A DNA stretch of 64,000 nt from Homalodisca vitripennis (lineage: Eukaryota; Arthropoda; Insecta; Hemiptera; Cicadellidae): contig NC_060211.1 of NCBI RefSeq assembly GCF_021130785.1, positions 21,561,001 to 21,625,000 of the forward strand, given 5' to 3'. Below are positions 15,564 to 64,000 of the stretch, piece by piece (the first letter of the stretch is position 1; the number at the start of each line of letters is the position of its first letter). Both the position numbers and the translations under genes were made by a program. The notes under the pieces are model-generated. The model was not told where the DNA came from. It made no database searches and saw only the letters and a list, made by a program, of their open reading frames with translations.

Positions 15564-16532
<969 letters not shown>

Positions 16533-23200: not shown

Positions 23201-23923
23201 AAGTAGCCGAACTTCTAATCAGTAAAGTTTTTCCGGTGCATTTTCCGACCGTTAGTTTGATCTGTACCCGAGCAACGCTCGAAAATTGCCCTCCTTTTCT
23301 AAAGGGTTTTCGGCCGTCAGTGGCCCAATGTCCCCGAAGGGGTATTTCATTTTCTCCACAGAAAATAGTTGTGTCAATTATACGCTTGAGTGAACCTCTG
23401 TTTTGTTCTTTTTCTTTCTTATCCAGTGAATCCAACATCACTTTGGTGCCAGAATTGAACTTCGTAAAGTTTCTGTAGCTGTACAAGAAGATTTTTGTGG
23501 TACTAGAGTTGCTGTGAGAGTTGAATTTGCCTATTACACCTTTCCACTTTCTATAAGGCGTAGTTACTAAAGCTCCATATTTTTGGTATTTACCTTTTAC
23601 CAGTGAACTCATTGGCAAATAACACACAAAACGTCCCCCGGATCCCCCGGTTTCGGACCCAAATTTTCGGACCCCCCCCCCCCCGAACGAAATTTCTGGC
23701 TACGCTACTGTCCAACAGTTATGACATTTATAATCCATATCTTATACAAATATACCATATGTTATATGCAGTTATGACGTCAAAGAGTGATATTTCTTTC
23801 AATGATTTATGACTTAAGGAAAATTATTTTTGAGTGCAATGTAATAATATGAGGAAATCACATGCTTTTATTAACATGAAAAATATATATTGTAAATAAA
23901 AAATTGTTTCCTTTGTAATAATT

Positions 23924-23983
<60 letters not shown>

Positions 23984-26853: not shown

Positions 26854-26907
<54 letters not shown>

Positions 26908-35209: not shown

Positions 35210-35625
35210 GAGTGGTAGTTACATTGAGACTTTTGAATAACGTTTATATTGAGACTTTTGAATAGCAGTTGCATTGAAACTTTCGACTAACAGTTACATT
35301 GAGACTTGACTAGCAGTTACATTGAAACTTTCACTAACAGTTACATTGAGACTTTTGGCTAGCAGCTATATTGAGACTTTTAACTAGCAGTTACATTGAA
35401 ACTTTCGACTAACAGTTACATTGAGACTTTTGGCTAGCAGCTATATTGAGACTTTTGACTAGCAACTATATTGAGACTTTTGACTAGCAGCTATATTGAG
35501 ACTTTTGAACTAGCAGTTACATTGAGACTTTTGACTAGCAGTTACATTGAGACTTTTGACTAGCAGCTATATTGAGACTTTTGACTAGCATTTACACTAA
35601 CGGTTACATTGAAACTTTTGGCGAG
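35210..35625. repeat. 25-bp minisatellite, about 16 copies
   Basis: Unit AGCAGTTACATTGAGACTTT followed by TGACT, with variants (AGCTATATTGAGAC, TTGAAACTTTCGACTAAC). Some copies have lost a few bases, giving a 22-26 bp period. Confidence 0.93.
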
Positions 35626-42450: not shown

Positions 42451-42458
42451 TATAAAAG
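42451..42458 (+). promoter_or_regulatory. TATA box of the micro-exon gene
   Basis: TATAAAAG, an excellent TATA match. ATCACTT about 30 bases downstream (42481-42487) is in the right place for an initiator, giving a 5' UTR of roughly 25 bases before the ATG at 42506. A strong TATA box suits a highly expressed, tissue-specific secreted protein. Confidence 0.6.
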
Positions 42459-42505: not shown

Positions 42506-42559
42506 ATGTCGGGTTTAAGAATATCTTTGCTCTGCGTCATCGCCCTAATTTGTTATCAG
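42506..42559 (+). CDS. micro-exon gene exon 1, signal peptide
   Basis: 18 codons, ATG in AATCATGTC context, donor CAG|GTAATT, phase 0 out. Residues 6-16 form a hydrophobic core (ISLLCVIALIC) after an Arg at position 5, a textbook short signal peptide. Cleavage is likely near the exon junction. Confidence 0.75.
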
Positions 42560-45500
42560 GTAATTTGAAATCAAAAATATTTTTATCTATGAGATAAACT
42601 GATTTATTTTAGTATAATCATGGTTTAATTCAGTATATTATTTTTGTTTCTAAGAAAAGTTTCCAAGTTCCTTGAGACATATTATTATTTAACAAATTTA
42701 TAATTTATCGATATGATTTACGGGTGTATGTACCTACGTCTAAAACTTTTTTATCCGAAGTGATTGTTATAGCACATAATATTTTATGTAGTTGAAACAT
42801 GTCTTTAAAAACATGTTTCCGTCCCTTACCAAAAATTTTATATATCGTTACAATTGTAAATAGTTTTGAGTGCTATTTGTAGTTCTGGCTTATGTTTTTT
42901 TTTCTCTTAGGACAAGAAGCTTAGAAAATTGCACCTAGTCCTATAAGGATCTTTGCGCTGCTCCCGGAGTGATACGAGATTCTGGATGGGTAACGTTGGT
43001 GGTACAGGCCGCCTCTTGTCAAGTTTAGTGAGGAAAAGTTTAAGGGTCTAATCTCAAATCATGTCCCCTCTGAAGAAGTAGAAGTCAGCTCTGAAACAGC
43101 CTCTTAGGTCAAAGAAGGCAGGGGGTGGCACACCCTTATGTTTAGGATGGCAAGCAAGACTATTTGACTCTTAGAGAACAAACCCACCAACTCCAACAGT
43201 CATATCCCGCAGTAGACTAGACCTATCGAATTATCCTTGCGCCCCAAAATCTCGCTCGTCATTTTCTGTTAGTGATGTGCCGCTCCTGGACATCCATAAG
43301 GTTGCCCATATTTAAGTAACACATCGGTATTTCCTGTGCCTAGTGGCAGGTTCAACTGGAAGGTATAAACCATCCAGAAGTGAACCCTCCTGAGGAATTT
43401 GCTTATGTTACAGAGAGGTATTTTTATTTAGAAAAGGAAGGGATATGGTTCAAAGATAAGGCAATTTTATAGTCACCCCCTCTGATCTCAGGGATGATTG
43501 TGCATATTTACTGTTCCATGCAATGGTTCAAGATGACGCTCACAAGGATGATAGGAACTCCCGGCAATATCCATTTGGGTTGTTCTTTCAATGACTGTCA
43601 CTTATTGACTCAGATATACACAAGGTCTCTAATTAAACCAATAAGACTGGTTCCATAACATGTCTTATTTACAGTATATTTATATATTAACTCTATCTCC
43701 TTTAATAGTTTCCTTTGAAAGCTACGCACCGCTTCATTCGCTTTCCCCACTTCTCGAAGCGTTGCTGAATGTCCGAAACTGGAATGTCCTTCAGTTAGTC
43801 GGTCACATTTTATTTTATTTTTTTATTGCTCCAAAATGATTCTCTTTTAGTTGGCTTTTTAGCTTAGAGAACAGGAAAAAGTGGCCAATAGAGAGTACAG
43901 TGTGGCAAGGTGCATTGCCATGATGCAGCAAACGTATTGATTTAAAGTGTCCTGCAAGGTAAAAACTTGTAATGGACAATTCCATTGGAATCAAACAAAG
44001 AAGTCAGCAAGGTTTACATTTTGGATTTGCTCATTCTTGCCTTTTTCGGATAAAGGTGAATTGGAAGTTAGTCATTCTTTACTCTGCGTTTTGTTTCTGG
44101 GTCGTACTAAAAATCAAAGATTCGATACCAAAGGAGACGCGTTTTAGAAAATCATCATCTCTTTCAACAAATTGAAAGATCTTCGTGAATTAAAAGATCT
44201 CGACAAACTTCCATTATTCTGTCGACTTTCTCATTTTTAGAACGAACAAAAAACTTGTTTTGCTACAAGTTTGGTTACAGCTTTCATGGTAATAATAGAC
44301 TAATAAATTAATACTCAATGTTGATCAGCCTTTTGGCCAAACACATGACTACTTGTCAGAGTTACAGAGTTGCCAGTATGGTAGCAAAGACATCAGTCTC
44401 ATTAATTTATTTACAGGCCTCGTATATTAACTACAACAGCCTTCTGAAATAAAGGATTAATAGAGAGAACATCATAGAAACCACGTTAAAAAAGTGGTAA
44501 TAAAGAAGATAGAAGAAAACATCAATAATACCTTTTTTACACGTTCAATACGGAATGAATCACCGGTGACTCATAATACAATTTTATTTAGGATTCTTAA
44601 TGGATTTTACCAAAACCTACTCTTTTTGAGGTACGCATTTCTTTACACGTTTTCACTGATTTAATTGAGCTTACGAGGAGAGAAGTATATTTTATAATTA
44701 TTACAATGAAGAGTAGTATTTCGTATGAGTCACGGATGGCTCATGCCGCACACGAACAATATTGTTTACACTGTTATTTCTCACGTGCGAAAGTTTTGAG
44801 TCAGACATGCACAATTGTTGCCCTTGTTAGCGCTGATTTCAGCTGCTATCATTGTCTCCTACTTTATTGAATCAACATCCTAGCTACTGTTGTCAAGTTT
44901 TTGAATTGTTTTTTAATAATACAACATTACTCTCTGTGACCAGTTTGCGGAAATCACGGGTAATTCATGGCAGTTAAAAGTATATACCGATCACGGTGGC
45001 GCTATCTAATGTAATACAATCTGGTTCCTCCAATTTCACCTAGAGTTTAGTTTAAGTTAGCGCTAGGTTAAGGTTAAGGTTAGGCTTAGGTTAATCCTAT
45101 TTTTTTAGGTTTAGGTTAAGCGATGACTACCGTGAGTACCGCACAGATATAATGATTCTGTTTGAGTCACCGGTGATATACTCGGAATATGCGAAAGAAA
45201 TAAAGACAATTTGATACCGCTATTAATGTTTACACAATTTTTTCAACATTATTTTTAATTCTTACGTGGCCTTTTGAAATGAAAGGTTTTATTATCAGGT
45301 GACTCCAGATATACATCTACATTTACATGTTTCAAAAAGATAAATATTAAAATAACATATTTTATGGTAGAAGATTTGTAAATACGGTAAGCCAGTTAAA
45401 AAAATTAAGATAGAGGTAGAACAGAATTTTCAATCGGTCCGTCTACATTATTTATAAATTTTCTTAACGTTTGTTTATGAAAAATGTTACCCAAGCAATC

Positions 45501-48500
45501 AAGTGTATTGGATTTGGAACTTTTTTATAATGGTAAATTTGTATTAGAAGTAATATGTCCAGTTTTATTTAAGAATTCATGATTTTACCTGGCTCTGTTC
45601 AGTGGTAATAAAGTACTTTAAATTATGTACGATTACAGTTACCACTTAGAAGCTACTATAATGCCAATATGACAATAATGTGACCCTCAACAGGTCACAT
45701 TACGAACACAGATTTTATTGCATCAGATAGTATTGGTGTTATAAGGGCTGGAACATCGCTAAACATTCAGTACAGAGAGTCACATCCCCCAACCCCCTCC
45801 TTACGACTCCCTACTAATCATCGCCATCGATCAATGAATCAATGTACTACCAGAATAATTTCTCTCCTAGTCTACTGATCTGAGAAGTTCAAAGTGGAAA
45901 TCTTAAACGTAACTTCAGAGTATGGTGCGGGAACTTCATTTTGTTGGTTGATAAATGTGGTCTCAATTAAATTCAATTTAATGTTTTATTGCATAACATA
46001 CATTATAAATTGCATCACAAAAATCATTCAATTTAAAAGCTAAAATTTTGCATTCTTCATTACAGTAGCTCTCATTCAGAGTTACAATTTTTCATTCACC
46101 CAAATTCTCATCCATTACATAATTTTCCCAATCTAACCACATGGTCAGTCAGCCAATTATGTAGTCTCCCAATCGTGTGCTATGAACTCGTCTGTACTAT
46201 AAAAACCTTCAGAGACCTACGCGATTTTCAGACGAATTTTAAATGCCTTGGATATTGTGGGATTTTTTATTGAATTTGGCAATTTGTTGACGAACTGAAC
46301 TCCTGCCTGCGAAGGCAATCGTTCATAAGCTACCGTCCTGTGTCTTCCAGTATGTTAGTTATTCCTGCCTCTATTGTCATAAGAGTGTACGTAACTACCT
46401 CTTATAACCTCGCATTTTGATTTGAAAACAAGAGATAATTCCAGAATTCTATTAGCTATTAATCATGGGTAATTTATTAAACATCTAATAGAGTATTCAA
46501 ATAATACTATTGCATTTTAATAAACTAAGTTAGTATCAAAGAATATGATGAGCAACCAAATTCAAATATAGGAAATAAAATTACTTTAATTTATTTCCTG
46601 GTATTTTGGTATTATGCAGAGGCCACTCTGTCCTTATCTACTACTTGTTATTAAGTCGCTAAAGTAAGTTTAGATTAGGTTATCATAAATTATGTAAGTA
46701 GTATTACCGAAGTTAAAGATAGCCTTTACAAGGGCTCTTGAGCTTGAATTTGGGTACTATCACGAGGGATTTTGCTCCTTTTTTCGCTAGAAGTGCTGGG
46801 TGGCTACGAAAGCGCTGATCGGTACTTTCCTAACCTCAGATCGTCCAACGTGATCTGACGTCGGAAAATCCCATCTGTGGGTTTCGGCGCTACCCAGCAG
46901 TTCTGGCGAGAAAGAAAAAGCCTCTTGACAGTACCTAAATTCAGGCTCAGATCACTGAAGCACTCGTAAATGTTAAATGTATTTGTCTATAATTCGTTCG
47001 CTAGTATTTACCTACCTATAACCTAATAATAAATAGCAGATCGAGACCGGGTGGCCTCCGAATTATATATAACAAAGTACCTATTTCCTAAATGATAAGA
47101 AATAAGCATTGGTTCGGAGTTTATTTATAAGAGACTTTGGTCCAGTCATTTTGTTCAGAGTTAAACTGAGTATTTTGTTTACAGGGGGTGTACTCGAAGC
47201 CTTTTAAGTTTGGTAAGTTATGACATTTGTATATTTATTTGAACTATCATGTCCACTTGGAATATTTTGTTTCCATGACGTTCTCTCAAAATCCAACATT
47301 ACAGTCACTTATAACTAGTATCTATGGTGGAAAGACAGAAGACTGCTCTATAGCAGACCTTTCCGCATACGACGGATCTGCAAATAGTGTGCTAGGAAAG
47401 TTTACAACCCGCAAACTTTACTGCTTTAGCATAAATTTTTACTTCACATTAAAGTTTGCAATTTTATAGTATCTAATAATCTAGCAATGTTTCTTATTGA
47501 TGGAGCCAAATTAAGATGTCTTCTTTTGTCGAAATGTTACAACCAAACGAACATTGTAATTCGTTCTCCAGTAACATACAAAAAGATAGGTATAAGGTAC
47601 TTTCTTACCATCCACATCCTGTCCTAAGGTGTGTGTGTTGCAGCGAAAATCTGCTGCTTCTACGCACGCACTTCTTAGCTGAAGAGACGAATCGACCTTG
47701 CAGAGCCCGGTCACCCTTTTGGGATCCGTTACTCCATTACAGCCAAAACGCTTTTGGATTGTGTGTCAATGCAAACTTATTCTTTGAGCTAACGCTCTTG
47801 ATATATTTGCGGATTTTCTGTTTCGACTTCGATTCGTCTCTTCAGCTAAAGAGTTCGTGCTTAGAAGCAGCTGATTTTCGCTGCAACACACACACCTTAG
47901 GACGGGATGAGCATGGTAAGAAAATACCTTTTAACTAAACTAATACCGCATGCCTGGCACACAATAAGCTCAGGTTGACGTGTGAGGATCTGTGAATCCA
48001 CCCCAATACCCTAAATACCGCATGCCTTACCGTCTTTGACTTTGTAAAAACAAAAGGATTATGTACGGTACTCCTATTATTCCTATTGTCATACAATAAC
48101 TATGTAGCGTAATAAAGATCTAAAGACTCCTAAAATCCAACGTCTTTTTATCTTGATCTTTTCATTTTTTAATAAATTGTTCAACACATTTTGTGAAATT
48201 TATTAAAGCAAAATTTTTCAGCAATGTAAATTTTATTACCATTGCAAAAATAATGTTTTGATAGTCACTATAAGAAAGAAATACTCTTAGATTATAAAAG
48301 CTATTTATTATAATTATATACAATATAAGCTGAAATTTTGCCATGTTCAGTTACAACAAATGTATTTAAACTAAACTTATAGTAAATTATTTATTAAAAT
48401 TATCAAAACTATGGCATCTCTAGCCATTTTTCTTTTTTAATTTATTTTCCTACACAAGTGCAACGAAACGTTTTTTAGGATGATGCAACGATCATTCGCA

Positions 48501-51500
48501 TTTAACCGTTTGACGATTATTTTCCAAAATGTCAATACAAGATCGACTTTTAGTTTAGTTTTAGCCCAGAGTCTCTCTCTATTACTTGGTGTTTAAGAAG
48601 TTGAAACCCACGAAATTTGTTACAAATTTAATGAGCATAACAGCTAAAAAGTACATAATCTAACTTAAGTTTAATTTTAAATATTGTTAAAATCAAAGAC
48701 TAATAAATGTTTCCACAGTTAAAATTCACTTGGTTTTGGCACCAATACAAAATACTTCTGTTGAATCTTTCAAGATGGATAATCTTACAATTAATCTTAG
48801 TGTCTTTATTTCTGTCCATTATAAAATTAATCTGACCAGGAGAAACAAAGCCTGATTTGTTGACCTCTTAAATGCTCTATATTTTTAAAAGTTGCAGGAT
48901 AGTAGTACTGTTTTCTGTCCTTCAAGAACAATTTTTAAGGTGGATTTGTATTTAAACCCTATCCAGTAGCAAGGGATTGCAACAGATTGTCATATTTCTT
49001 CAATAAAGCCCTAATGGTGCCTAGGTAGTAAACATGTAAGTGGATCACATTCTAAAATGTAAGAGTGGATTAATCTTAAAATTTAAACGTTTACTTGTAA
49101 CATTCGTGTCTTTGATTATATACGAAGTTGCGTTTTTTCTCGAACGTTAAATCACTAGATGCGCCATGTCTCTACTTCTGTGAAGTCCCAATCAACCTGC
49201 TCGTTTTCGAAAGGAAGCGGGCATACGAAGGGAACGGTGTGGTAACTCGAACATAGGCTCGAAAACAACCCTTGAAGGACTTGCAGGAACGATGGCTGGT
49301 AGAGAGCAGAGGACTTGGACTGCCAAGCTGATTAGAGACATGAGAGAATGGGTGGATGTACAACACGGGGAGGTAAATTCTACCTGACCCAGTTCCTCAC
49401 CTATCATGGCACCTTTCAAGCGTACTAGTTTAAGATGGGTAGTTTAAAGGCTCGGATTGTACCTATGGGGGGTGCGAAGCACAACGTCACCAACCTCGCG
49501 CTCTTCTTCTGCATACGGTGGGAAAACGAAATAAGAGGATTCGAGATTGCCATAGACCAACTCTCAATAGTCACCATTGTTCGGAAAATAGTTTCTGACA
49601 GACATACTTGGAGTATTGTCTCTGCTTATGTAGAGGGGGTGCTGAAAACTAAGAAATTATAAGAAGGGTAGTACAGCTCCGGTGTTGCCCAATCTATAGC
49701 CTGACGTTGTAGGAACCCACTGTTGGGCTTAAGTTGGCACCCTCTTGAATGCGGAAGTAGCCCCGAGAGGGAGTGATGCCTGGGTGGGCCGGTGGGGTTC
49801 TAGTCAGTCTCACTCATCAGCGATTTTCGCTGACGTTGCATTAGCGTTTTCCCCATATAAAAAAAACTAGGCGGGTGGGGCCATCATGCTTAAGAGCACA
49901 CAAGTGATGAAATATTCAAGTATATTTTATAATTCCAAAGGTTCTTCCAATACCTTATGAGTTAATCTAATGAGTATGCATCAAAATAATTCAAAACTTT
50001 TGAGCAGCCCGGAGTGACCGAACTATTATTCGATCACTAGTTCCACCAATTATTGGAATGTTTTCGTTTAATATTCTCCACAATTAACTAAATCTGTTTT
50101 AGGCATTATGAACTATTAAAGTAATAATTAGAGAATTATTTATAACCCCTAATTGTGGATGTATCGTCCAAATAAAAATTAATAGTTACATTAAGTTTTA
50201 TTCTTTTTTATATTTTACATTATATAAACAAAAGAATACATATACAATTTGTCAACTTAAAATGATTTTTTTAATTGAAAATATCACACGGTACTTGTAC
50301 AACTGTATGTTTTAAGTGACCCATTATTTTTCAGGTGTGAAGGATCCATTTGGATTTGGATCAGCAGTATTAAATATTGGCAGTGATGGTGAGTAATTGT
50401 TAAAACTACGCAGGAAACAGTTATGATCTAACATGCCACTTTGTACAATTTATTTACCGATTTGAAGAGTTTTCTGCAATATACTGAAAGAAGTAAAATT
50501 TCTTTTCAATTTTCAATTTAGAATGTTTTATGGCTGGTTTTACATATTTGTGATACAATCACGTTATTAATTATTACTGTATGTAATCCGTGGTGTTGGC
50601 ATATTGAAAGTTAATTTTTTTGTTGCAATGTCACAAAAATACGTTAAAGACTATTTCCATACTATCTTAAAATCAGAACAGTTTCGTAATATTGAACATG
50701 AAAATTAAAAAAATCCTCAGGTTCTAAATTATATTTCGAATGTTTTCCTTAGTTGTGATAAAAACGTGTTTCAGAAGCAAAAAATATATGTATAAGTCGC
50801 CACGCACAATATACTGAAGGGTGGATTTTGAGAATATTAGAACCTCATGTACATCACGCAAGTCTTGGAAAAATCATGATAACTATTCAAATATAATGCA
50901 ATTAAAAATGTCATCGTTATTTTGTTACAAATAATAGTTGTTCTTCACATAATTAGCTATTTTCTAAAACTTAGTCGTCACTAATAGGTACGCACGTGAT
51001 ATATAATAATGTTTTTTTAAATAATTTTAAATAATAATATTGTTAAAGCCCATGATTATACTTGAGAAAATGTTAAAGAGCACTTTGTAATCCAAGTCCT
51101 TTTCAGTAGTATTAAAAGAATAAACGACTAGTTTTGAACAGTCCACTGTTGTATATCCTATAAGTGCAATATTAATATACATATATTTTTAGATTCGAGT
51201 GATCAATCCGATTCTTAAGCTTTCTCGATTTTAGATATCGTCTCTGATTATGGCGAGTAGTACCTTTGATTGTAAGAGATAACTCCATTGTACGTTGTAA
51301 ACTAAGGCACGTCAAAAGTGGGCGTTCGGACTGCCATCTGTGGAGTGAGAAGTCAACTAGCAAATATTTGAAAGGTAACAATCAAGTTGCGTGGCGCAGC
51401 CCTAGTGTCTGACGGCGGAACTAACTGAAATAAACCCTCGGACTCCAGCACACCTCGTCAGTATGAATGATTTATCTTCTGTGTAAGTAATTGGCTCGGC

Positions 51501-54500
51501 GTTAGCGAAGCCTGTCACTAGAGGGGCTAGAAAAAATGTCTTCCTGTCCGTCCATACAATATCTAAAAAACGAAAAGAGTAGGCTTAAAATTTTCATAAA
51601 GCTACATTTCTATAAAGCCAACACTGAGTTCGATGGTGGTGAATGTCATTCCATAGGATTTGGCTAAGCTTTAGCGAATATTTTCCCATGAGTCTTATAG
51701 ATAACCATAACGGCAACAAGGAAAAAGTATAATTAATAAATTTATAAACAAACGTAGTTCAAACGTAGGAGTTTTTTTAAATGTGTCATTTCTACTCATA
51801 GAGTAAACAGAAAACATAATAGAGTGGAAGTCAATGTTAAAAGTCTGTGAAAGATTTTGCTATGAAATCTTGCTTAATGAAGAAAAATGTGAATTTATCA
51901 TGTTGCAAAATATCTTGATCAAGATATAATAGCCTATATAGACTTTAAATTTTGTATGACACCTCATTTCTTTACTTTCAAGAATGAGTTCTGTTATGGT
52001 GCATGTGCAAACATGGAATTTTGCTAAAAACGTCATTGAAGGCTATCACTCATTAGGGTAACTTAATTTATCTTTTGTCTGCCGGCGGGGGATTTAGAAA
52101 GTTCTATTCTGTATGTTTGTCTGTGTGCCTATCTGTCCCTAGGACATCTCGAGAATGAAATAGCTAGCTTTAATATTTTATTAAATTAATTAATTAATAA
52201 TATAGCTTTAATATTTTGCAAGCAACGTCATCGAAACCTGTTACGCAACACTTGGTGTGGCGTAGGCCTAGTGATAGGAGAATCGATTACTTAAGAGAAT
52301 CGAATACAATGAATTCGAATGCACCCCTAATTCGAATATGTATTCGAATACTCATATACCTTTGCTTTTTGTGACTTTGGCTTTTGGTGCCTCGTACAAA
52401 AAAGTCATACCCATGATATACGAACTTCAGAAGAAATATCTTTGTTTACCTCCTACTTCAATTCCGTCTGAAAGACTATTTTCCACAGCAGGTCTTGTCG
52501 TCACTAATTACCGTAGAAATAGACTAAAGCCAGAAAACCTCAATAATATTTTGTTTTTACACAACAATATGAAATAAACATTCATATTTGTCTTTATTGC
52601 TTACAACTGTAACTATTAAATAATATGTATTTTTAAATTTAATAATTATACAATTATAAATTTTTTCAAGTATTAAAATTTGTAATTATTTTTTCAAATT
52701 ATGAATCTTCCCTAAATTATTCTTTTCAAAGTCTCCATATATGTATTCATTTTAAACCTCATATGAATACGAATACAGCTCTTGGATATTTTATTTGAAT
52801 ACTATTTGTCAGAATAAACGAATACTCCAGGTTTGAATTCAATTCTTTCAGAGAAATTGTATTCATTTCAAAAGTATTCTAATTCATTTTGATGTATTCG
52901 AATATGTGAATACTCTGGCTGTACTCGAATACTATTCGATTCTGTATTCGATTCTCCCATCACTACGTAGGCCTACTCATGCCTCTAAATAACCACAGCA
53001 CTTACTCAATATTGGGAACAGAATAATTCATTGATTTAATATATGTTCGTGCGTGAAAAATATCGTGTTCCAAGAATGCCATATTATGAATTGTTCATTC
53101 AAGTAACTGTTGTTAGTAATCTACATGTACTAATTATTAATATTTTTTTAGCTATCAGTGACAAAATTGATGCCGGAGAAGCCTTAATTGTTGATATCGT
53201 ATCTGATGTCGGTGAGTATTTCTTTGTCTACTAAGTAAAGCCATCACAATGATGATGTCATATTTTAATTTTCAATGTAAATGTAATATCGACTAAAGTT
53301 TTGTAAATAAGATTTTTATCATATGACTTATAAAACTGATATAAAACAAATATTATATTATAAATATGTGGATGAACCCTGAAACCTTTTATTTATTATT
53401 CTTCGAACCACTTATAAACTCTTTATTGCCGGCCTAAAGATGTGCACTAACCCAATTTTATAATACATCTATAGTATACCCTTGCTCGTACAAGGGTTAG
53501 GTTTGATCTATAATCAAAATCCAAAATGCAATAAAAAGTAAAAGTAATTATTTTGTATATTTTGTAACAAATTAGACCTCGTAAGTGTATGATTTTCTAC
53601 ATAATTTACCCAAACAGTTAATTATTCTGTCACTAAAATGCCACAATATAATAATAAAGATAATTTACAGGTGATACCGTTGAGACTGTCGCAGACGTGA
53701 TTATTGATATAGCATTTGATCAAGGTGAGTATCTTTAGGTAAATTACTAATGGCCGAAAGATTCTCTAATTCTGATACTTTCAATGGACTAGAATATCTA
53801 AGTAATAATTTGCAGTTGTTCCTAATTTTATAGAAGCTGGGAGCTTCTAATCTTAAGAGCCCTTAGAAGTCATGACTTCTATTTAAGAAACATCTTGTAC
53901 AGTTATGAAACTGCTTTGAGGTTATAAGACTTTTTCAGAGGATACAATCATCAGATGCCTTGAATTCCAAGATTTGGATTCGAAAAGACTAAACGATGAC
54001 ATTTTTTTGTAATTTTATAGATGTCGTCCGAGTTTGGCATCCAGATACTTTTGATAGATATCTGACACTTATTCCTCAAAGGAACTTCTTAAATCTCCCT
54101 TTAAGAAAGTGGGATCATTTAGAAGTGAGGTTAATAGCCCTTTAAGTCGGAAAATCTCACAAGCAAACACTTTATAGAGGTCGAGAAAATCTATAGGGTG
54201 GAAACTCCTACAGACCTGGACCTAGATCTTGAAAACTTCCAGAGGACTGGAGTTCAAACAACTGGAGTACCTTAGAAACTTTATTACGCCCGAGAAAATC
54301 CAGAGAGAATGGTATCATAGTCGGAACTTTTAGAGGCTGAAAATTATGAGAAGCTAGAAGCTCTGATGCCAAAAGTTAATAGAAGATATTAGCGTGTATG
54401 AATACGTATAGTCATTGACGAAAAGTCATAAAAACGTCTCACAAGATAAAAATTGGCTAGAAGTGAAAATTAATAAGATTTTTCACTGATTTATGGCTTT

Positions 54501-57500
54501 TTGCTTCCAACACCAATCCCAGATTTTAACAGTTAACAATTTTAAAAACAGTTTAATCCGTAAAAGTTTGCTCAAAATATCTAGATAAACGGTGCACGGT
54601 TCGACATCATGTCACATTTTACTGGATCACTTTACCTACGGAAAAAGGTATTTACAATTTATTAATTCCAGACACTAGAATCTACTCTGATCAGAGGAAG
54701 CGTCTCATTGATGCCCCGGTTAAGAAAACGTAAAATAAATTAGTTTTAAAGTGTACTTTAGTAACCTTTTCCGGTAATTGTAATTTACTTCTGATCTAAA
54801 GTATTTTTGATGCTGGTGTAGCGTTAGCCTTACTGTCCACTTCCAGAAAATATATACATGCATAGGTCTAAATTTCAAATGTTATAAAAATCAACTAATT
54901 CCGCCCATTGAAATCTACTTCCTTTCCAAGGTATTTCCGGTGCCTATTGTTGTTTTTTATCAAAAATACACATATGTGTTAAACTTCAACCATCTAATAA
55001 AGTAGCAGTTAAAAAAACATAGTTTATTTTATAGAAGCTGAAACTACATTTAAACATGTATAAGTTTTGTTAATACTAGAAAATGTGTCTTTATTCAATG
55101 CAAGTTATGTGGCACGTGTGTGTATCAAATTTCTTGTTTCTAGGTTATCTGGAGTATTTAAAAACCAAACATTTTTCCATAATTACTAATAAGAACTAAA
55201 TCCCTAGTTTTTCTAGGGTTTAAAAATCCTCTTCAACCCTTACTGGTAATGTATTTTCATGAGAAACCCCCTTTTGTTTATTTTTTTGAAAATAGAAATT
55301 GTTTGTGTCAAAACTCATCTTCCTACAAAATTGGACGATATAAAAAAATACAGTATTTCTAGGTTTTATCACCGAATTTCTACTTTTGTTGATATTTTAT
55401 TTTCATAAAATACTTTGGTTTTTCTATAAAAGTTATGAGGCATTGATGTGCCAAGTTTCAACTGGAATAATAAGAAATTGGAGGAATAGTAATGAGTGAG
55501 TTAGAACTTTATATTTAGAGTTAGCGATACCAGAAACCGCTAGTAAATTTAAAACTTTTGTAAATGCTTGATTTTTTAATTTTTATATAAACTACCATAT
55601 GATACACACACAAAAACACGCAAAAAATACAATAATTAATCTTCAATTTATCTCTAAATTAAACACAAACAAGAATTTTCACTCTACTTATTCAAGCTGC
55701 AATGTTACTGTGCATTTTCCCCAAAAAAATCTAAATTTTCAGGTTAGGGCGAAAATGTAGATTCTGAAGCACACTCTACTAATAATACGTCTTCTGAGCA
55801 AAGTAGGTATTCCTTTGCATTCGGAAACTGTACATTTTGTAAGGCTAGAAAAAAAAATATATATTTATTAAATATTAAATATATTTAAATAAACTCTGTA
55901 CTTCTCATTCAAGCTACAATGTTACTGTGCATTTTCAATATATAAAATATACAAAATAATATACATATTTTTTATTTATAATTATAACAAAATAAGTCAG
56001 AGTAGCGAGAACATTTGTATTTTGCACAGCAGATGTATATTGCAGATTAATTTTGTCTGCTGGTATTGTTTTGGTGGAGGATTTGGTATCAGTAACTTTT
56101 AGTGAACAAAAGGTTTCTTGACTTAAGCTCTTTATTAAGTTTTCAATTAGTTCGTGATCTAAAATTTGACTAAAAAATCTGAATTTTCAGATGAGGATGA
56201 AAGTGCAGATTCTGAAGCAGAATCGACTAGTGATACTACTAATGAGCAAAGTAGGTATATCACTGAAATCTAAAACTCTACATTTTATGAGGCTAAAGAA
56301 ATAATAGATACATTTTTATTAATAATTATAACAGAATAAGTCAGGGTAGCAAGAACATTTGGGTAGTTGTTTTGAAATACAGTCATTTTTCATTATTCTA
56401 TAAGAACGCTGCATTCTGTTGCCAATATTCTGGCACTTGGTATTATAGAGCATACTGATTGTTTTGCATGTAATAATAGCCTAAGTGTAACTGGTAAGAA
56501 AGTAACTACCCTATATTGCAATCGGTTGACAGAGATACGAACTAGGTGCAGCAATCATAGAAACGCTTCTTGTTGTCTGGGACAGTGTCCGATTTCCGAA
56601 TCTGCAATAAGAGGAAGTCGGACTGTATCAAAATAAGACATTCTCATTAATAAATTTATAGCGTGATAACGTCTTATCTACACTGAACATCTAAAGCGTT
56701 TCGATTGAAAAAGTTACAACTGCCAGTCGGCTGCGCGGCAGATGTGTTTTGCTGAATAATTTTGTCAGCTGGTATTGTTTAGGTGGAGTAATTGGTATCA
56801 TTAACTTTTAGAGAATAAAATGTTTGTTGAATTCAGCTCTTTATTAAGTTTTCACTTAGTTTGTGATCTAAAACTTGACAAAAAAATCTAAATTTTCAGA
56901 TGAGGATGAAAACACAGAAGCTGTAGCAGAATCGACTAGTGATACTACTAATGAGCAAAGTAGGTATATCTCTGCATTCTGAAACTCTACATTTTATAAG
57001 GCTAAAAAAATAATAGATCCATTTTTATTTATAAATATAATTGAAAAAGTCAGGGTAGCGAGAATATTTGGGTAGTTGTTTTGAAGTACGGTCATTTTTC
57101 ATTATTCTACAAGAACACTGTATTCTGTTGCCAATATTCTGGCACTTGGTATTATAGAGCATAGTGATTGTTTTGCATGTAATAATGGCCTAAGTGTAAC
57201 TGGTAAGAAGGTAATTGTCCTATACTGCAATCGGTTGACAGAGATACGAACTTGGTGCAGCAATGATAGGAATGGTTCTTGTTGTCTGGGACAGTGTTCG
57301 ATTTCTAAAGCTGCAATAAGAGGAAGGTGGACTGTTGCAAAATTCGACATTCTCATTAATAAACTTATAGCGTGATAACTTCTTATCTACACTGAACATC
57401 TAAAGCGTTTGGATTGAAAAAGTTACAACTGCCAGTCGGCTGCGCGGCAGATGTGTTTTGCTGATTAATTTTGTCAGCTGGTATTGATGTAGTGGAGTAA

Positions 57501-60500
57501 TTGGTATCAGTAACTTTTAGTGAACAAAATGTTTGTTGACTTCAGCTCTTTGAAGGTTTTCACTTAGTTCGTGATCTAAAATTTGACTAAAAAATCTAAA
57601 TTTTCAGATGAGGATGAAAATGCAGAATCTGAAGAAGAATCGACTAGTGATACTACTAATGAGCAAAGTAGGTATATCTCTGCATTCTGAAACTCTACAT
57701 TTTATAAGGCTAAAAATAATAATAGATCCATTTTTATTTATAAATATAATTGAAAAAGTCAGGGTAGCGAGAATATTTGGGTAGTTGTTTTGAAGTACGG
57801 TCATTTTTCATTATTCTACAAGAACACTGTATTCTGTTGCCAATATTCTGGCACTTGGTATTATAGAGCATAGTGATTGTTTTGCATGTAATAATGGCCT
57901 AAGTGTAACTGGTAAGAAGGTAATTGTCCTATACTGCAATCGGTTGACAGAGATACGAACTTGGTGCAGCAATGATAGGAATGGTTCTTGTTGTCTGGGA
58001 CAGTGTTCGATTTCTAAAGCTGCAATAAGAGGAAGGTGGACTGTTGCAAAATTCGACATTCTCATTAATAAACTTATAGCGTGATAACTTCTTATCTACA
58101 CTGAACATCTAAAGCGTTTGGATTGAAAAAGTTACAACTGCCAGTCGGCTGCGCGGCAGATGTGTTTTGCTGATTAATTTTGTCAGCTGGTATTGATGTA
58201 GTGGAGTAATTGGTATCAGTAACTTTTAGTGAACAAAATGTTTGTTGACTTCAGCTCTTTGAAGGTTTTCACTTAGTTCGTGATCTAAAATTTGACTAAA
58301 AAATCTAAATTTTCAGATGAGGATGAAAATGCAGAATCTGAAGAAGAATCGACTAGTGATACTACTAATGAGCAAAGTAGGTATATCTCTGCATTCTGAA
58401 ACTCTACATTTTATAAGGCTAAAAAAATAATAGATCCATTTTTATTTATAAATATAATTGAAAAAGTCAGGGTAGCGAGAATATTTGGGTAGTTGTTTTG
58501 AAGTACGGTCATTTTTCATTATTCTACAAGAACACTGTATTCTGTTGCCAATATTCTGGCACTTGGTATTATAGAGCATAGTGATTGTTTTGCATGTAAT
58601 AATGGCCTAAGTGTAACTGGTAAGAAGGTAATTGTCCTATACTGCAATCGGTTGACAGAGATACGAACTTGGTGCAGCAATGATAGGAATGGTTCTTGTT
58701 GTCTGGGACAGTGTTCGATTTCTAAAGCTGCAATAAGAGGAAGGTGGACTGTTGCAAAATTCGACATTCTCATTAATAAACTTATAGCGTGATAACTTCT
58801 TATCTACACTGAACATCTAAAGCGTTTGGATTGAAAAAGTTACAACTGCCAGTCGGCTGCGCGGCAGATGTGTTTTGCTGATTAATTTTGTCAGCTGGTA
58901 TTGATGTAGTGGAGTAATTGGTATCAGTAACTTTTAGTGAACAAAATGTTTGTTGACTTCAGCTCTTTGAAGGTTTTCACTTAGTTCGTGAGTTGAAATC
59001 TGACTTGTCACAGGCTTGACTCATGGAAAATGCTACGTCCATCTTAAGGTAAAAAAAGATGGGCTAGTAATAATTTCCAAGTGAAGTGTGTGTAGTTTCA
59101 TGAGTTGACCTTCGTGAAAATGTTACTTTTTTAAATGTACGTTTTGGAACAAGCCTTTGTATAAAATGTGATGTTCCTATGAAATCGGGCATTTTGAAAA
59201 ACCAAAGGATAGTTTTTCTATTGATTAAAATTCCAACTCAACCCTTATGGGTAATGTATTTTCTTGAGAAATCCTTTGCGTCCTTTACTACAACATAAAA
59301 AATGTTTGTGTAGAAATTCGTCTTCCTAAGACATTAATAAGATTTAAAGCAAAATACAGTTCTTAAGGGTATGCCACCCAATTTAAACTGCTCTTGATAT
59401 TTTATATGTTTAAAAACTGTGTTAATTCTTTATACCCAGTGAGGCATTAGTGTGCTTTTTTGAACAGGGATATAAGGAAGTTCAAAAATAGTAATGATGC
59501 TGTGAGTGTTTAGAAAATTATCTTTAACATGTACAGATACCAGAAACCGCTTATAAATTTAAAAACTTTATTAATGCTTAATTTTTTAATTTATTTTATC
59601 ATTGACCTACCATATGATCATAAACATAAATACATAGGCTATATTTTTAATATTTATAATATTGTAAATAGACTAAAATGTTTTCGTAAATATATAGAAA
59701 CAAGCCAAAATGGAATTTTTAATAAACATATTTAACACAATCATATATATCATATAAGTTTACTTTGTTCTTAAGTAAAAGACGAATATCAATAACTGGT
59801 AAACGCCATTTTCAATGAAAAATATGTTTTAGTTGGCCAAGGTCCTTTTAACTTTAAATGTTCTTAATTTAACTCTGAACATCTATTTAAGCTACAATGT
59901 TATTGTACATTTATCAATAAAAAATCTAAATTTTCAGATGAGGATGAAAATGCAGAATCTGAAGAAGAATCGACTAGTGATACTACTAATGAGCAAAGTA
60001 GGTATATCTCTGCATTCTGAAACTCTACATTTTATAAGGCTAAAAAAATAATAGATCCATTTTTATTTATAAATATAATTGAAAAAGTCAGGGTAGCGAG
60101 AATATTTGGGTAGTTGTTTTGAAGTACGGTCATTTTTCATTATTCTACAAGAACACTGTATTCTGTTGCCAATATTCTGGCACTTGGTATTATAGAGCAT
60201 AGTGATTGTTTTGCATGTAATAATGGCCTAAGTGTAACTGGTAAGAAGGTAATTGTCCTATACTGCAATCGGTTGACAGAGATACGAACTTGGTGCAGCA
60301 ATGATAGGAATGGTTCTTGTTGTCTGGGACAGTGTTCGATTTCTAAAGCTGCAATAAGAGGAAGGTGGACTGTTGCAAAATTCGACATTTTCATTAATAA
60401 ACTTATAGCGTGATAACTTCTTATCTACACTGAACATCTAAAGCGTTTGGATTGAAAAAGTTACAACTGCCAGTCGGCTGCGCGGCAGATGTGTTTTGCT

Positions 60501-63500
60501 GATTAATTTTGTCAGCTGGTATTGATGTAGTGGAGTAATTGGTATCAGTAACTTTTAGTGAACAAAATGTTTGTTGACTTCAGCTCTTTGAAGGTTTTCA
60601 CTTAGTTTGCGATCTGAAATCTTACTTGTCACAGGCTTGACTACTGGAAAATGCTACGTCCATCTTATTAAGGTAAAAAAAGACAGGCTAGTAAGAATTT
60701 CCAAGTGAGGTGTGTGTAGTTTCATGAGTTGATCTTCGTGAAAATGTTACTTTATTAAATTACGTTTTGGCATTTAATAAAAACCTATAACATTGGGCAT
60801 TTAAAAAAACCAAAGTACGGATTTTCTATAGATTAAAATACTAATTCAACCCTTATAGGTAATGTATTTTCTTGAGAAATCCTTTGCTTCCTTTACTACA
60901 ACATGAAAAATATTTGTGTCGAAATTCGTCTTCCTAAGACATTAATAAGATTTAAAGCAAAATACAGTTCTTAAGGGTATGCCACCCAATTTAAACTGCT
61001 CCTAATATTTTACATGTTTAAAAACTGTGTTAATTCTTTATACCCAGTGGGGCATTAGTGTGCTTTTTTGAACAGGGATATAAGGAAGTTGAAAAATAGT
61101 AATGATGCAGTGAGTGATTTAGAAGTTTATCTTTAATATGTACAGATACCAGAAACCGCGTGGAAATTTAAAACTGTTTTAATGCTTAATTTTTAGTTTA
61201 TTTTATCATTGACCTACTATTTGATCATAAACATAAATACATAGGCTATATTTTAATATTTATAATATTGTAAATAGACTAAAATGTTTTCATAAATATA
61301 TAGAAACAAGCCAAAATAGACTTTTTAATAAACATATTTAACACAATCTTGGACTTAGTTTTTAAGTAAAAGATTAAATTCATTAACTGGTAAACGCCAT
61401 TTTCAATGAAAAATATGTCTTAGTTAATCAAAATCAATTTAACTTTAAATATTCTTAATAATACTCTAAATATCTATTTAAGCTACAATGTTATTATGCA
61501 TTTCTCGATAAGAAATGTAAATTTTTAGATGAGGATGAAAATGCAGAATCTGAAGAAGAATCGACTAGTGATACTACTAATGAGCAAAGTAGGTATATCT
61601 CTGCATTCTGAAACTCTACATTTTATAAGGCTAAAATAATAATAGATCCATTTTTATTTATAAATATAATTGAAAAAGTCAGGGTAGCGAGAATATTTGG
61701 GTAGTTGTTTTGAAGTACGGTCATTTTTCATTATTCTACAAGAACACTGTATTCTGTTGCCAATATTCTGGCACTTGGTATTATAGAGCATAGTGATTGT
61801 TTTGCATGTAATAATGGCCTAAGTGTAACTGGTAAGAAGGTAATTGTCCTATACTGCAATCGGTTGACAGAGATACGAACTTGGTGCAGCAATGATAGGA
61901 ATGGTTCTTGTTGTCTGGGACAGTGTTCGATTTCTAAAGCTGCAATAAGAGGAAGGTGGACTGTTTGCAAAATTCGACATTCTCATTAATAAACTTATAG
62001 CGTGATAACTTCTTATCTACACTGAACATCTAAAGCGTTTGGATTGAAAAAGTTACAACTGCCAGTCGGCTGCGCGGCAGATGTGTTTTGCTGATTAATT
62101 TTGTCAGCTGGTATTGATGTAGTGGAGTAATTGGTATCAGTAACTTTTAGTGAACAAAATGTTTGTTGACTTCAGCTCTTTGAAGGTTTTCACTTAGTTC
62201 GTGATCTAAAATTTGACTAAAAAATCTAAATTTTCAGATGAGGATGAAAATGCAGAATCTGAAGAAGAATCGACTAGTGATACTACTAATGAGCAAAGTA
62301 GGTATATCTCTGCATTCTGAAACTCTACATTTTATAAGGCTAAAAAAAAATAATAGATCCATTTTTATTTATAAATATAATTGAAAAAGTCAGGGTAGCG
62401 AGAATATTTGGGTAGTTGTTTTGAAGTACGGTCATTTTTCATTATTCTACAAGAACACTGTATTCTGTTGCCAATATTCTGGCACTTGGTATTATAGAGC
62501 ATAGTGATTGTTTTGCATGTAATAATGGCCTAAGTGTAACTGGTAAGAAGGTAATTGTCCTATACTGCAATCGGTTGACAGAGATACGAACTTGGTGCAG
62601 CAATGATAGGAATGGTTCTTGTTGTCTGGGACAGTGTTCGATTTCTAAAGCTGCAATAAGAGGAAGGTGGACTGTTGCAAAATTCGACATTCTCATTAAT
62701 AAACTTATAGCGTGATAACTTCTTATCTACACTGAACATCTAAAGCGTTTGGATTGAAAAAGTTACAACTGCCAGTCGGCTGCGCGGCAGATGTGTTTTG
62801 CTGATTAATTTTGTCAGCTGGTATTGATGTAGTGGAGTAATTGGTATCAGTAACTTTTAGTGAACAAAATGTTTGTTGACTTCAGCTCTTTGAAGGTTTT
62901 CACTTAGTTCGTGATCTAAAATTTGACTAAAAAATCTAAATTTTCAGATGAGGATGAAAATGCAGAATCTGAAGAAGAATCGACTAGTGATACTACTAAT
63001 GAGCAAAGTAGGTATATCTCTGCATTCTGAAACTCTACATTTTATAAGGCTAAAATAATAATAGATCCATTTTTATTTATAAATATAATTGAAAAACCAA
63101 AGGATAGTTTATTGATTAAAATTCCACAACCCTTATGGGTAATGTATTTTCTTGAGAAATCCTTTGCGTCCTTTACTACAACATGAAAAATGTTTGTGTA
63201 GAAATTCGTCTTCCTAAGACATTTAATAAGATTTAAAGCAAAATACAGTTCTTAAGGGTATGCCACCCCAATATTAAACATGCTCCTTGATATTTTATAT
63301 GTTTAAAAAACTGTGTTAATTCTTTACCAGTGAGGCATTAGTGTGCTTTTTTGAACAGGGATATAAGGAAGTTCAAAAATAGTAATGATGCTGTGAGTGT
63401 TTAGAAAATTATCTTTAACATGTACAGATACCAGAAACCGCTTATAAATTTAAAACTTAATGCTTAATTTTTAATTTATTGTATCATTGACCTACCATAT

Positions 63501-63885
63501 GATCATAAACATAAATACATAGGCAATATTTTAATATTTATAATATTGTAAATAGACTAAAATGTTTTCGTAAATATATAGAAACAAGCCAAAATGGAAT
63601 TTTTAATAAAATAAACATATTTAAACATCATATATATCATATATATTTTACTTTGTTCTTAAGTAAAGACGAATATCAATAACTGGTAAACGCCATTTTC
63701 AATGAAAAATATGTTTTAGTTGGTCAAGGTCCTTTTAACTTTAAATGTTCTTAATTTAACTCTGAACATCTATTTAAGCTACAATGTTATTGTTACATTT
63801 ATCAATAAAAAATCTAAATTTTCAGATGAGGATGAAAATGCAGAATCTGAAGAAGAATCGACTAGTGATACTACTAATGAGCAAA
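42506..63885 (+). CDS. secreted acidic repeat protein, micro-exon gene, 3' end beyond window
   Basis: Unrecognised gene deduced from splice sites. Exons: 42506-42559, 47185-47212, 50335-50388, 53152-53211, 53671-53724, then nine 60-nt exons (56191, 56900, 57608, 58317, 59938, 61529, 62238, 62948, 63826). All junctions keep one frame. The product begins MSGLRISLLCVIALICYQ, a signal peptide, then GVYSKPFKFG, then VKDPFGFGSAVLNIGSD and two related Val/Ile/Asp-rich exons. It ends in 20-residue repeats NEDENAESEEESTSDTTNEQ (9 acidic, no basic residues). After the 28-nt second exon every exon is 54 or 60 nt, phase 1 on both sides, so any can be skipped in frame. The mature part seen has no Cys. Homology unknown; extracellular or salivary-type role is inference. 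The layout resembles schistosome micro-exon genes in style only. Confidence 0.75.
42560..43684 (+). other. 5' part of micro-exon gene intron 1
   Basis: First 400 bases AT-rich. From about 42960 to 43600 base composition is more GC-rich with no open frame; it looks like a degraded transposon, unidentified. Confidence 0.4.
43685..44180 (-). pseudogene. dead mariner-like transposase fragment
   Basis: Minus-strand reading in several frames gives the C-terminal half of a mariner transposase. In order it shows RMTNFQFTF near QKQNAE, then KGIVHHE-like IPMELSIT, then LLHHGNAPCHTVLSIGHF, FLFSKLKSQLKENHFGAI and KGDRVNI. The second catalytic Asp of the usual HHDNA motif is Gly here (HHGNA), and there are multiple stops and frameshifts, so it is inactive. 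It lies antisense in intron 1 of the micro-exon gene. Confidence 0.7.
44181..45964. other. intron 1 middle part, repeated TGAGTCAC motifs
   Basis: ATCACCGGTGACTC at 44559-44572 and its reverse complement GAGTCACCGGTGAT at 45164-45177 bracket about 600 bp, with a related TGAGTCACGGATGGCTCATG at about 44725. A TTAAGG/TTAGG-rich stretch lies at 45058-45122. Possibly a decayed inverted-repeat element; no gene. Confidence 0.35.
45965..46440 (-). pseudogene. LINE fragment, C-terminal end of reverse transcriptase ORF
   Basis: On the minus strand the frame reads GRHRTVAYERLPSQAGVQFV, NKLPNSIKNPTISKAFKIRL, an in-frame stop, then EGFYSTDEFIAHDWETT. This is the NKLP and FYS-DEF ending common to Jockey/CR1-type LINEs. 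Its 3' side (low coordinates) ends in an ATTAAATTGAATTTAATTG tail. 5' truncated and carrying a stop. In intron 1 of the micro-exon gene. Confidence 0.65.
46733..46956. mobile_element. foldback MITE, about 224 bp
   Basis: Left arm GAGCTTGAATTTGGGTACTA, CTCCTTTTTTCGC and GTGCTGGGT pair with right-arm CAGTACCTAAATTCAGGCTC, GCGAGAAAG and ACCCAGCAG in reverse complement. The centre CAGATCGTCCAACGTGATCTG is itself nearly palindromic. No coding capacity and no clear target duplication. Confidence 0.7.
47185..47212 (+). CDS. micro-exon gene exon 2
   Basis: 28-nt exon; acceptor TATTTTGTTTACAG, donor TTTG|GTAAGT. Phase 0 in, phase 1 out, which sets the phase for all following exons. Encodes GVYSKPFKF plus the first base of Gly. 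Confidence 0.7.
47595..47930. repeat. inverted repeat with about 100-bp arms
   Basis: Arm 47595-47693 and arm 47830-47930 are reverse complements at roughly 88 percent identity by eye, including GTCCTAAGGTGTGTGTGTTG and CAGCGAAAATC-GCTGCTTCTA. The 136-bp spacer is unique. Either arm read outward from the centre stays open and gives near-identical peptides (AADFRCNTHTLG). Confidence 0.8.
49200..49870 (+). pseudogene. R1-type LINE remnant, RNase H-like C-terminus and 3' UTR
   Basis: Reads TWTAKLIRDMREWVDVQHGE, then after a frameshift YLTQFLTYHGTFQAY, a stop, FKMGSLKAR and a final frame ending EGVLKTKKL at 49662. The order LI-x-D-x-x-x-W, HGEV, LTQFL-x-x-HG-F-x-x-YL is the signature of the region after the reverse transcriptase in R1/LOA-type LINEs. 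GC-rich 3' UTR continues to an A-run at about 49860. Broken by a frameshift and stop, so inactive. Confidence 0.72.
50335..50388 (+). CDS. micro-exon gene exon 3
   Basis: 54 nt; acceptor CCATTATTTTTCAG, donor GATG|GTGAGT, phase 1 in and out. Encodes GVKDPFGFGSAVLNIGSD. Confidence 0.75.
52269..52965 (+). mobile_element. 697-bp internally deleted hAT transposon
   Basis: Ends TAGTGATAGGAGAATCGA at the left and its counterpart TCGATTCTCCCATCACTA-like sequence at the right (read outward TAGTGATGGGAGAATCGAAT). A perfect 8-bp target duplication CGTAGGCC flanks it at 52261-52268 and 52966-52973. Subterminal regions are full of TATTCGAATA-type repeats, candidate transposase-binding sites. It keeps only the last part of the transposase gene. 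Confidence 0.92.
52380..52577 (+). pseudogene. hAT transposase C-terminal dimerisation domain, remnant
   Basis: Open frame of about 66 residues ending at a stop. It contains LQKKYLCLPPTSIPSERLFS, TAGLVVTNYRRNRLKPENLN and ILFLHNN, which is the hATC signature (Y-L-x-x-P-x-TS-x-PSER-x-FS-x-AG ... R-x-x-L-x-P-x-x). The DNA-binding BED finger and the RNase H catalytic core are deleted. Intact frame suggests a recent origin or chance; not an active enzyme. Confidence 0.88.
53152..53211 (+). CDS. micro-exon gene exon 4
   Basis: 60 nt; acceptor TATTTTTTTAG, donor GTCG|GTGAGT, phase 1 in and out. Encodes AISDKIDAGEALIVDIVSDV. A second AG seven bases downstream is less likely because it lacks phase match. 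Confidence 0.75.
53212..53670 (+). other. intron 4 of the micro-exon gene
   Basis: 459-bp AT-rich intron with clean GT-AG ends; nothing else seen. Confidence 0.6.
53671..53724 (+). CDS. micro-exon gene exon 5
   Basis: 54 nt; acceptor AGATAATTTACAG, donor CAAG|GTGAGT, phase 1 in and out. Encodes GDTVETVADVIIDIAFDQ, similar in pattern (V-x-D-V/I, I-x-D-I) to exon 4, suggesting an older exon duplication. Confidence 0.75.
53725..55742 (+). other. intron 5, proximal part
   Basis: 53800-54400 is rich in GAAGCT, AACTTC and CTAGAAG words, a degenerate low-order repeat. From about 55180 the sequence is a diverged copy of the long-intron part of the exon array, leading to the pseudoexon. Confidence 0.55.
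55743..55802 (+). pseudogene. decayed copy of the repeat exon with an early stop
   Basis: 60 nt between the same acceptor (CTAAATTTTCAG) and donor (CAAA|GTAGGT) as the functional copies. In the phase of the gene its second codon is TAG. Later codons still resemble the repeat (GCA CAC TCT ACT AAT AAT). Both splice sites look usable, so inclusion would truncate the protein. Confidence 0.75.
56191..56250 (+). CDS. repeat exon copy 1 (diverged)
   Basis: Acceptor GAATTTTCAG, donor CAAA|GTAGGT, phase 1. With the G of exon 5 it reads DEDESADSEAESTSDTTNEQ. Differs from the later copies at several residues, so it predates the homogenised block. Confidence 0.8.
56900..56959 (+). CDS. repeat exon copy 2
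   Basis: Reads NEDENTEAVAESTSDTTNEQ. The junction codon is AAT because the previous exon ends in A. Intermediate in sequence between copy 1 and copies 3-9. Confidence 0.8.
57608..57667 (+). CDS. repeat exon copy 3
   Basis: First copy of the homogenised type: NEDENAESEEESTSDTTNEQ. Acceptor CTAAATTTTCAG, donor CAAA|GTAGGT. Confidence 0.8.
58317..58376 (+). CDS. repeat exon copy 4
   Basis: Identical in sequence to copy 3 including synonymous sites. Followed by the first long intron (58377-59937). Confidence 0.8.
59938..59997 (+). CDS. repeat exon copy 5
   Basis: Identical to copy 3. Preceded by a long intron with a 3' part unlike that of the short introns but the same CTAAATTTTCAG acceptor. 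Confidence 0.8.
61529..61588 (+). CDS. repeat exon copy 6
   Basis: Exon identical to copy 3, but the acceptor is changed to GTAAATTTTTAG, so it may be spliced less efficiently. Confidence 0.78.
62238..62297 (+). CDS. repeat exon copy 7
   Basis: Identical to copy 3; short-intron type on both sides. Confidence 0.8.
62948..63007 (+). CDS. repeat exon copy 8
   Basis: Identical to copy 3. The following intron (63008-63825) is a deletion hybrid of short- and long-type sequence. Confidence 0.8.
63826..63885 (+). CDS. repeat exon copy 9, last in window
   Basis: Identical to copy 3. Intron sequence after it is again of the short type to the window edge, so more copies probably follow. Confidence 0.8.
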
Positions 63886-64000
63886 GTAGGTATATCTCTG
63901 CATTCTGAAACTCTACATTTTATAAGGCTAAAATAATAATAGATCCATTTTTATTTATAAATATAATTGAAAAAGTCAGGGTAGCGAGAATATTTGGGTA

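Follow-up and report, generated by a model that had tools for sequence, protein, structure and literature searches.

A predicted micro-exon gene with a tandem array of acidic exons in the glassy-winged sharpshooter

Organization of the locus

The window analyzed here is a stretch of 64,000 nucleotides from the glassy-winged sharpshooter Homalodisca vitripennis, a vector of Pierce's disease of grapevine. It covers positions 21561001-21625000 of its contig, and was extended by 12 further stretches to give 181.9 kb of unbroken sequence, in which the extended coordinates continue the window numbering beyond 64,000. A predicted gene made of very small exons runs along the + strand from window position 42506 to about 79.4 kb (extended). 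It thus occupies ~37 kb, rather than the 21 kb assigned to it in the first-pass annotation. We regard the feature as real and probably coding, and as larger than first noted.

Upstream of the micro-exon locus, and on the same + strand, lies a MINDY-4 gene with exons at window 19156-32080. In a Pfam search two of its three pieces were above the cut-off for the MINDY-3/4 domain, and the third lay below. The joined pieces, used as a protein query, matched a MINDY-4 assigned to H. vitripennis, with 99% identity over 72% of the query. The window also contains minisatellites at 3955-5536, 30038-31337, 32119-33510 and 35217-35596, with periods of 231, 97, 140 and 25 nt respectively, and a (CA)100 run at 16332-16531.

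The putative promoter region contains, as reported earlier, a TATA-like box (TATAAAAG, 42451-42458, + strand), which we place 55 nt upstream of the ATG; it is read as a motif only. The first exon, E1 (42506-42559, 54 nt), provides the ATG and the hydrophobic core of a putative signal peptide in 18 codons, and ends in phase 0. E2 (47185-47212) is just 28 nt long and carries the frame from phase 0 to phase 1. Both assignments are readings of the sequence. A putative signal cleavage site follows GVYS in E2, which we take to be its position by the -3,-1 rule. The gene product is probably secreted.

Three further exons lie on the + strand before the array, each with phase 1 at both borders. E3 (50335-50388, 54 nt) encodes a helix-like peptide with no significant likeness to the other modules. 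E4 (53152-53211, 60 nt) and E5 (53671-53724, 54 nt) are module exons. The former resembles three exons located beyond the array (D45, D54 and D60), and the latter has a weak acceptor that fails our acceptor filter. The E2-E3 intron contains a MITE-like inverted repeat (47587-47937) with 109-nt arms that are 90% complementary, and a fragment of a hAT transposase C-terminal dimerization region (52278-52577) lies inside the E3-E4 intron.

All fourteen small exons of the first model (E1-E5 and the array exons A1-A9) are present as described, with internal borders that are invariably AG/GT and a single frame that is translated with no stop. By direct reading and by script, every exon downstream of E2 has phase 1 on both sides.

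A tandem array of acidic exons

Beyond E5 the + strand carries tandem copies of a 60-nt exon that encodes an acidic repeat of 20 residues. The nine copies within the window were recognized in the first-pass annotation, and are located at 56191-56250 (A1), 56900-56959 (A2), 57608-57667 (A3), 58317-58376 (A4), 59938-59997 (A5), 61529-61588 (A6), 62238-62297 (A7), 62948-63007 (A8) and 63826-63885 (A9). Six more intact copies lie past the window on the same strand, starting at 64534, 65243, 65951, 66659, 67367 and 68075 (extended), giving 15 frame-open copies from 56191 to 68134 (extended). One unit of the array, comprising intron and exon, is 709 nt long (for example 57668-58376). The spacing of the copies is 708-710 nt, with exceptions of 878, 1591 and 1621 nt that correspond to introns of other length; the long introns preceding A5 and A6 are of 1,561 and 1,531 nt respectively.

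Taking A3 as the core sequence, the exons A4 to A9 are the same as A3. A1 differs from it at three of 60 nt, and its surrounding unit is ~90% identical to the core, while A2 differs at five of 60 nt. Over full-length matches the short core units are 98.9-100% identical, and the long introns 92-95% alike. Not one of the 60 exon columns varies from A3 to A15. When A8 is left out, the remaining twelve introns of this group differ pairwise at 0-24 alignment columns, with a few pairs identical over the aligned stretch (A3 with A10, and A4 with A12). The A8 intron is rearranged, and has ~300 differing columns. Because the introns are also near-identical, the conservation of the exons within the array cannot by itself demonstrate selection, and we have rejected that reading of it.

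A damaged copy is found at each edge of the array. On the upstream side, ps0 (55743-55802, + strand) is ~80% identical to the core unit and has intact AG/GT borders, with an in-frame TAG just after its first (split) codon. It is possibly a relic, a skipped exon or a poison exon. This exon-like, stop-bearing segment had been omitted from the earlier tally, the listed exons of which are correct. On the downstream side a relic copy at 70200 (extended, + strand) is ~79-80% identical to the core unit and has lost its acceptor AG. The core appears to be a recently homogenized tandem array, with old edges and a homogenized center, as unequal exchange predicts. Its description in the first-pass annotation as growing is suggested by the near-identity of the units, but the two relic copies show loss besides gain.

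The comparison of A2 with A3 reveals five differences in 60 exon nucleotides, as against four in 599 flanking nucleotides, the latter mostly in the downstream flank. The mismatch excess in A2 probably marks the edge of the homogenized block, and positive selection on this exon was set aside in favor of that reading.

Bases 326-406 of the unit (for example window 57993-58073, and likewise in other array introns) match a dispersed repeat. When the 709-nt unit was searched against the genome, 42 of the 66 matches listed lay outside the locus, all of them in unit bases 323-408, with 40 of 94 candidates scored. A search of phage records with the array unit gave no match.

Module exons beyond the array and the 3' end

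Past the array, three module exons are found on the + strand in extended coordinates, each with phase 1 at both borders. These are D45 (73195-73239, 45 nt), D54 (74990-75043, 54 nt) and D60 (79302-79361, 60 nt). D45 and D54 are tandem duplicates, including their intron flanks, with 79% identity over 193 columns with 20 gaps. Three substitutions and a single in-frame gap of 9 nt separate the two exons themselves. A further candidate exon of 48 nt, D48 (72042-72089), was rejected; it has a weak acceptor, no module likeness and a hydrophobic moment with P = 0.88.

An in-frame TAA lies downstream of D60 at 79367-79369, followed by AATAAA at 79449 and ATTAAA at 79469. D60 also has a good donor, GTGAGT. 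On this sequence D60 may be a terminal exon with a compact 3' end, or else the gene may be longer, with D60 internal to it. The end of such a longer model was not found in the 102 kb past D60. A candidate terminal exon at 118008 stood high when 444 candidates were ranked by composition, and was rejected because it was absent from the best 25 of the module ranking.

Evidence that the modules are probably coding

The signal for coding is strongest outside the array, in two exons before it and three after it that encode related helix-like modules of 15-20 residues. We searched for exons with a rule specifying a YAG acceptor with at least seven pyrimidines in 12, a GTRRGT donor, a length of 42-63 nt and an open frame. 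Five phase-1 candidates were found in the 22.7 kb of the locus outside the array, and none in phase 0 or phase 2 within the locus. By the same rule the background was three distinct donors in ~326 kb, made up of the forward strand outside the locus and the whole reverse strand. The Poisson probability of five candidates is 2.8e-6, or 6.7e-5 with the duplicates D45 and D54 counted once; these values are indicative only, since E3-E5 and the downstream exons were already known when the rule was drawn up, and E5 does not pass it. The earlier judgment that the arrangement is very unlikely to arise by chance agrees with these counts, within the indicative character of the P values.

The likeness between modules is better evidence than the enrichment by the exon rule. 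Peptide alignment scores were 46 for E4 with D54, 42 for D54 with D60, 40 for E4 with D45 and 38 for E5 with D54, each with a shuffle P ≤ 0.001. Nine of the ten pairs that can be formed from E4, E5, D45, D54 and D60 had a shuffle P < 0.05, the remaining pair being E4 with E5 (P = 0.09). By the same test neither E3 nor the rejected D48 has significant similarity to any module.

In 158 aligned codon pairs the first, second and third positions differ 61, 50 and 79 times respectively, and 32 of 64 conserved residues are encoded by different codons. The difference between positions 2 and 3 has a Fisher P of 0.0013, which is indicative, since the module pairs overlap and are not independent. As read from these alignments, the excess at the third position is what selection acting at the protein level leaves behind.

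In E3, E4, E5, D45, D54 and D60 the hydrophobic moment peaks at 95-105 degrees, corresponding to an alpha helix. Compared with shuffled sequences, P lies between 0.0008 and 0.08; it is below 0.05 for D45, D54 and D60, and 0.05-0.08 for E3, E4 and E5. The acidic repeat of the array is devoid of helix periodicity by the same measure (shuffle P = 0.33).

Searches for relatives

A 212-residue query gave no match at E ≤ 1 among 544 candidates of ~117-371 residues in the protein collection. Similarly, a 454-residue query, of which residues 1-145 were scored, gave none at E ≤ 1 among 1533 candidates of 250-794 residues. Both queries also held the D48 peptide. Proteins shorter than ~117 residues fall outside the candidate range, and a short fragment comprising E1-E5 only would escape. 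The contig itself is represented in the collection by at least one protein, the H. vitripennis MINDY-4.

Within the insect's own genome (2.3 Gb) the protein query gave six matches, all of them inside the micro-exon locus. At the DNA level E3 matched itself only, as did E1 with its promoter, and the D54 region matched itself and its tandem duplicate D45 only. These searches were seeded on shared words, and distant paralogues may escape them. No Pfam family was above threshold; CobT was found below threshold at E = 0.036, and was taken as noise arising from acidic composition. There was no relative among PDB sequences (best E = 0.47), and Rfam gave only one sub-threshold match over 42000-64000. 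At the sensitivity used, the first-pass statement that no family with this sequence was known holds for Pfam, the PDB, the protein collection and the remainder of the genome. In a literature search limited to open-licence PMC papers, none of the titles and abstract openings listed named a leafhopper micro-exon gene, and we make no claim of absence in print.

Discussion

The explanation that we favor, with a probability of roughly 60%, is that H. vitripennis has a gene of ~37 kb for a modular, secreted micro-exon protein with a 15-copy acidic array. Splicing would join E1-E5, the 15 array exons, D45, D54 and D60, skipping ps0. The predicted chain has 438 residues, ending at the TAA of D60, with a net charge of about -152 at pH 7 and a pI of about 4.05. 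In the counted mature part there are 106 Glu, 60 Ser, 53 Thr, 50 Asp, 46 Asn, 11 Gly, three Pro and no Tyr, and cysteine is absent from the predicted mature chain. The protein would have a disordered, strongly acidic middle flanked by helical ends.

As each exon after E2 has phase 1 on both sides, the gain, loss or skipping of an exon keeps the frame. The length of the protein would shift in steps of 20 residues if near-identical units exchanged unequally or were skipped. The earlier proposal of a modular, frame-preserving protein, the length of which can change by whole exons, is in keeping with the likeness of the modules, the third-position excess, the near-identical units and the decayed edges of the array.

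Some features count against this model. The splice sites of the first array copy, ps0, are good, and its inclusion would terminate the protein. Some acceptors are weak, that of E5 among them, and the terminal exon is uncertain. In addition, the protein searches gave no match at E ≤ 1 in a collection that includes MINDY-4 from this contig, where a well-expressed gene might already be annotated.

The position of ps0 suggests a shorter product, which we consider unlikely. Its acceptor and donor are of the same kind as those of the intact copies, it is the first copy after E5, and its stop comes right after its first codon. If it were spliced after E5 the product would be a short secreted protein ending at 84 residues, and the array would be non-coding downstream DNA or part of a regulated poison-exon switch. 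Yet three module exons past the array stay open, in the same phase and with peptide likeness to E4 and E5, and this is hard to explain if translation always ends at ps0.

The same stop, taken together with the acceptor lost at 70200 and the failure to find a protein match in the collection, could also indicate a decaying pseudogene, once active and now silent, with an array still turning over as tandem DNA. We think this improbable. Borders and frame are intact in five exons before the array, in 15 array copies and in three module exons after it, and the damage found is in the two outermost array copies, where decay would be expected of any tandem array.

It is a good deal less probable than the favored reading that the 709-nt array is satellite-like DNA within an intron, its exon-like segment unused, the real gene consisting of E1-E5 with D45, D54 and D60. 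The core units are near-identical in intron and exon alike, so that exon conservation there proves nothing, and the acidic repeat differs from the modules in composition and in having no helix periodicity. However, AG/GT borders are retained in each of the 15 intact copies, as is an open phase-1 frame that fits both neighbors, and even the more diverged A1 and A2 are unchanged in frame and length and remain acidic. Finally, near-identical tandem units such as these are difficult to assemble, and the true number may not be 15, which we hold to be very unlikely. The units are told apart by spacing (708-710, 878, 1591 and 1621 nt) and by small differences, although a few pairs are identical over the aligned stretch. 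Such an effect would alter the copy number alone and is compatible with the favored model.

The favored gene has counterparts in architecture, and the first-pass annotation had pointed to the micro-exon genes (MEGs) of schistosomes and to aphid effector genes. That likeness is one of exon organization; no sequence relative was found, and with no cysteine in the predicted mature chain there can be no CYC motif. In the portions consulted of Stern and Han (2022; PMC9168663), many bicycle genes have N-terminal signal sequences and many micro-exons, and nearly all internal exons begin at codon position 2, equivalent to phase 1 here. The same portions describe variation in length through repeats of a unit (unicycle to tetracycle), genes that are poorly findable by sequence, and some homologs that have no clear CYC motifs; bicycle genes are reported there in aphids, phylloxerids and coccids, with none in three more basal outgroups (PMC9168663). 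On that partial account, the present locus has in common with them predicted micro-exons starting at codon position 2, a length that could change by unit repeats, poor findability by sequence and a hemipteran host, and their N-terminal signal may have a counterpart in the hydrophobic E1 and plausible cleavage site read from the sequence here. In contrast, bicycle genes are described as having CYC motifs and hundreds of loci, whereas the mature chain here has no Cys and one locus was found.

Schistosome MEGs are described, in the part consulted of PMC10526429, as having a signal peptide and 10-20 short exons, the majority of them a multiple of three in length, separated by introns that range from 100 to almost 5000 bp, and as difficult to annotate automatically. 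Short exons divisible by three and long introns are common to both, as far as that text goes. The exons described there are mostly of 15 nt, whereas those after E2 here are 45-60 nt, and the host here is an insect, of another phylum. The reported Cys motifs and N-terminal Trp motif likewise have no Cys or Trp to correspond to them in the highly acidic chain predicted here, and homology is not indicated. Tandemly repeated exons in Schistosoma mansoni reportedly encode 81-base repeats, according to the title of a 1988 paper in the reference list of PMC10526429, which on that title is a precedent. Assignment to the bicycle genes or to the schistosome MEGs is not supported, the likeness being architectural only.

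H. vitripennis is known to have lineage-restricted secreted proteins, the brochosomins and brochosome-associated proteins, and the part consulted of PMC10607721 describes brochosomes as rich in Gly, Tyr and Pro. What the predicted protein would share with brochosomins on that description is lineage-restricted secretion in the same species; its composition differs, being rich in Glu, Ser, Thr, Asp and Asn, and Tyr is missing from the mature part that was counted. The vertebrate secretory calcium-binding phosphoproteins are secreted, disordered proteins of variable length with acidic Ser-rich repeats, encoded by small symmetric exons with mostly phase-0 introns. The general style is alike; these are vertebrate proteins and their phase differs, and we do not claim homology.

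The protein might act outside the cell as a polyanion, binding cations or surfaces in saliva or another gland product. This is a suggestion that we hold weakly and would put at well under an even chance, and saliva or another gland product as the site is a guess. Also held weakly is the idea that sharpshooters possess a separate class of secreted micro-exon genes, using the phase-1 grammar of the bicycle type through a hemipteran origin older than reported or independent invention. Protein length at this locus would be set by the copy number of a cassette that is still expanding and contracting, so that individuals may differ in the length of the protein they secrete.

The locus would represent a known architectural kind in a place from which we found no report of it, with an unusual tandem exon cassette. 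It is a possible component of a secretion of an important vector of crop disease, for which the protein searches gave no record. If the gene is transcribed, the micro-exon design of secreted proteins would extend to leafhoppers, outside the groups named for bicycle genes in the consulted portions of the account above, and this raises the question of whether the exon grammar arose once in Hemiptera or repeatedly. In that case the number of copies of a near-identical exon-intron unit would determine how long the protein is.
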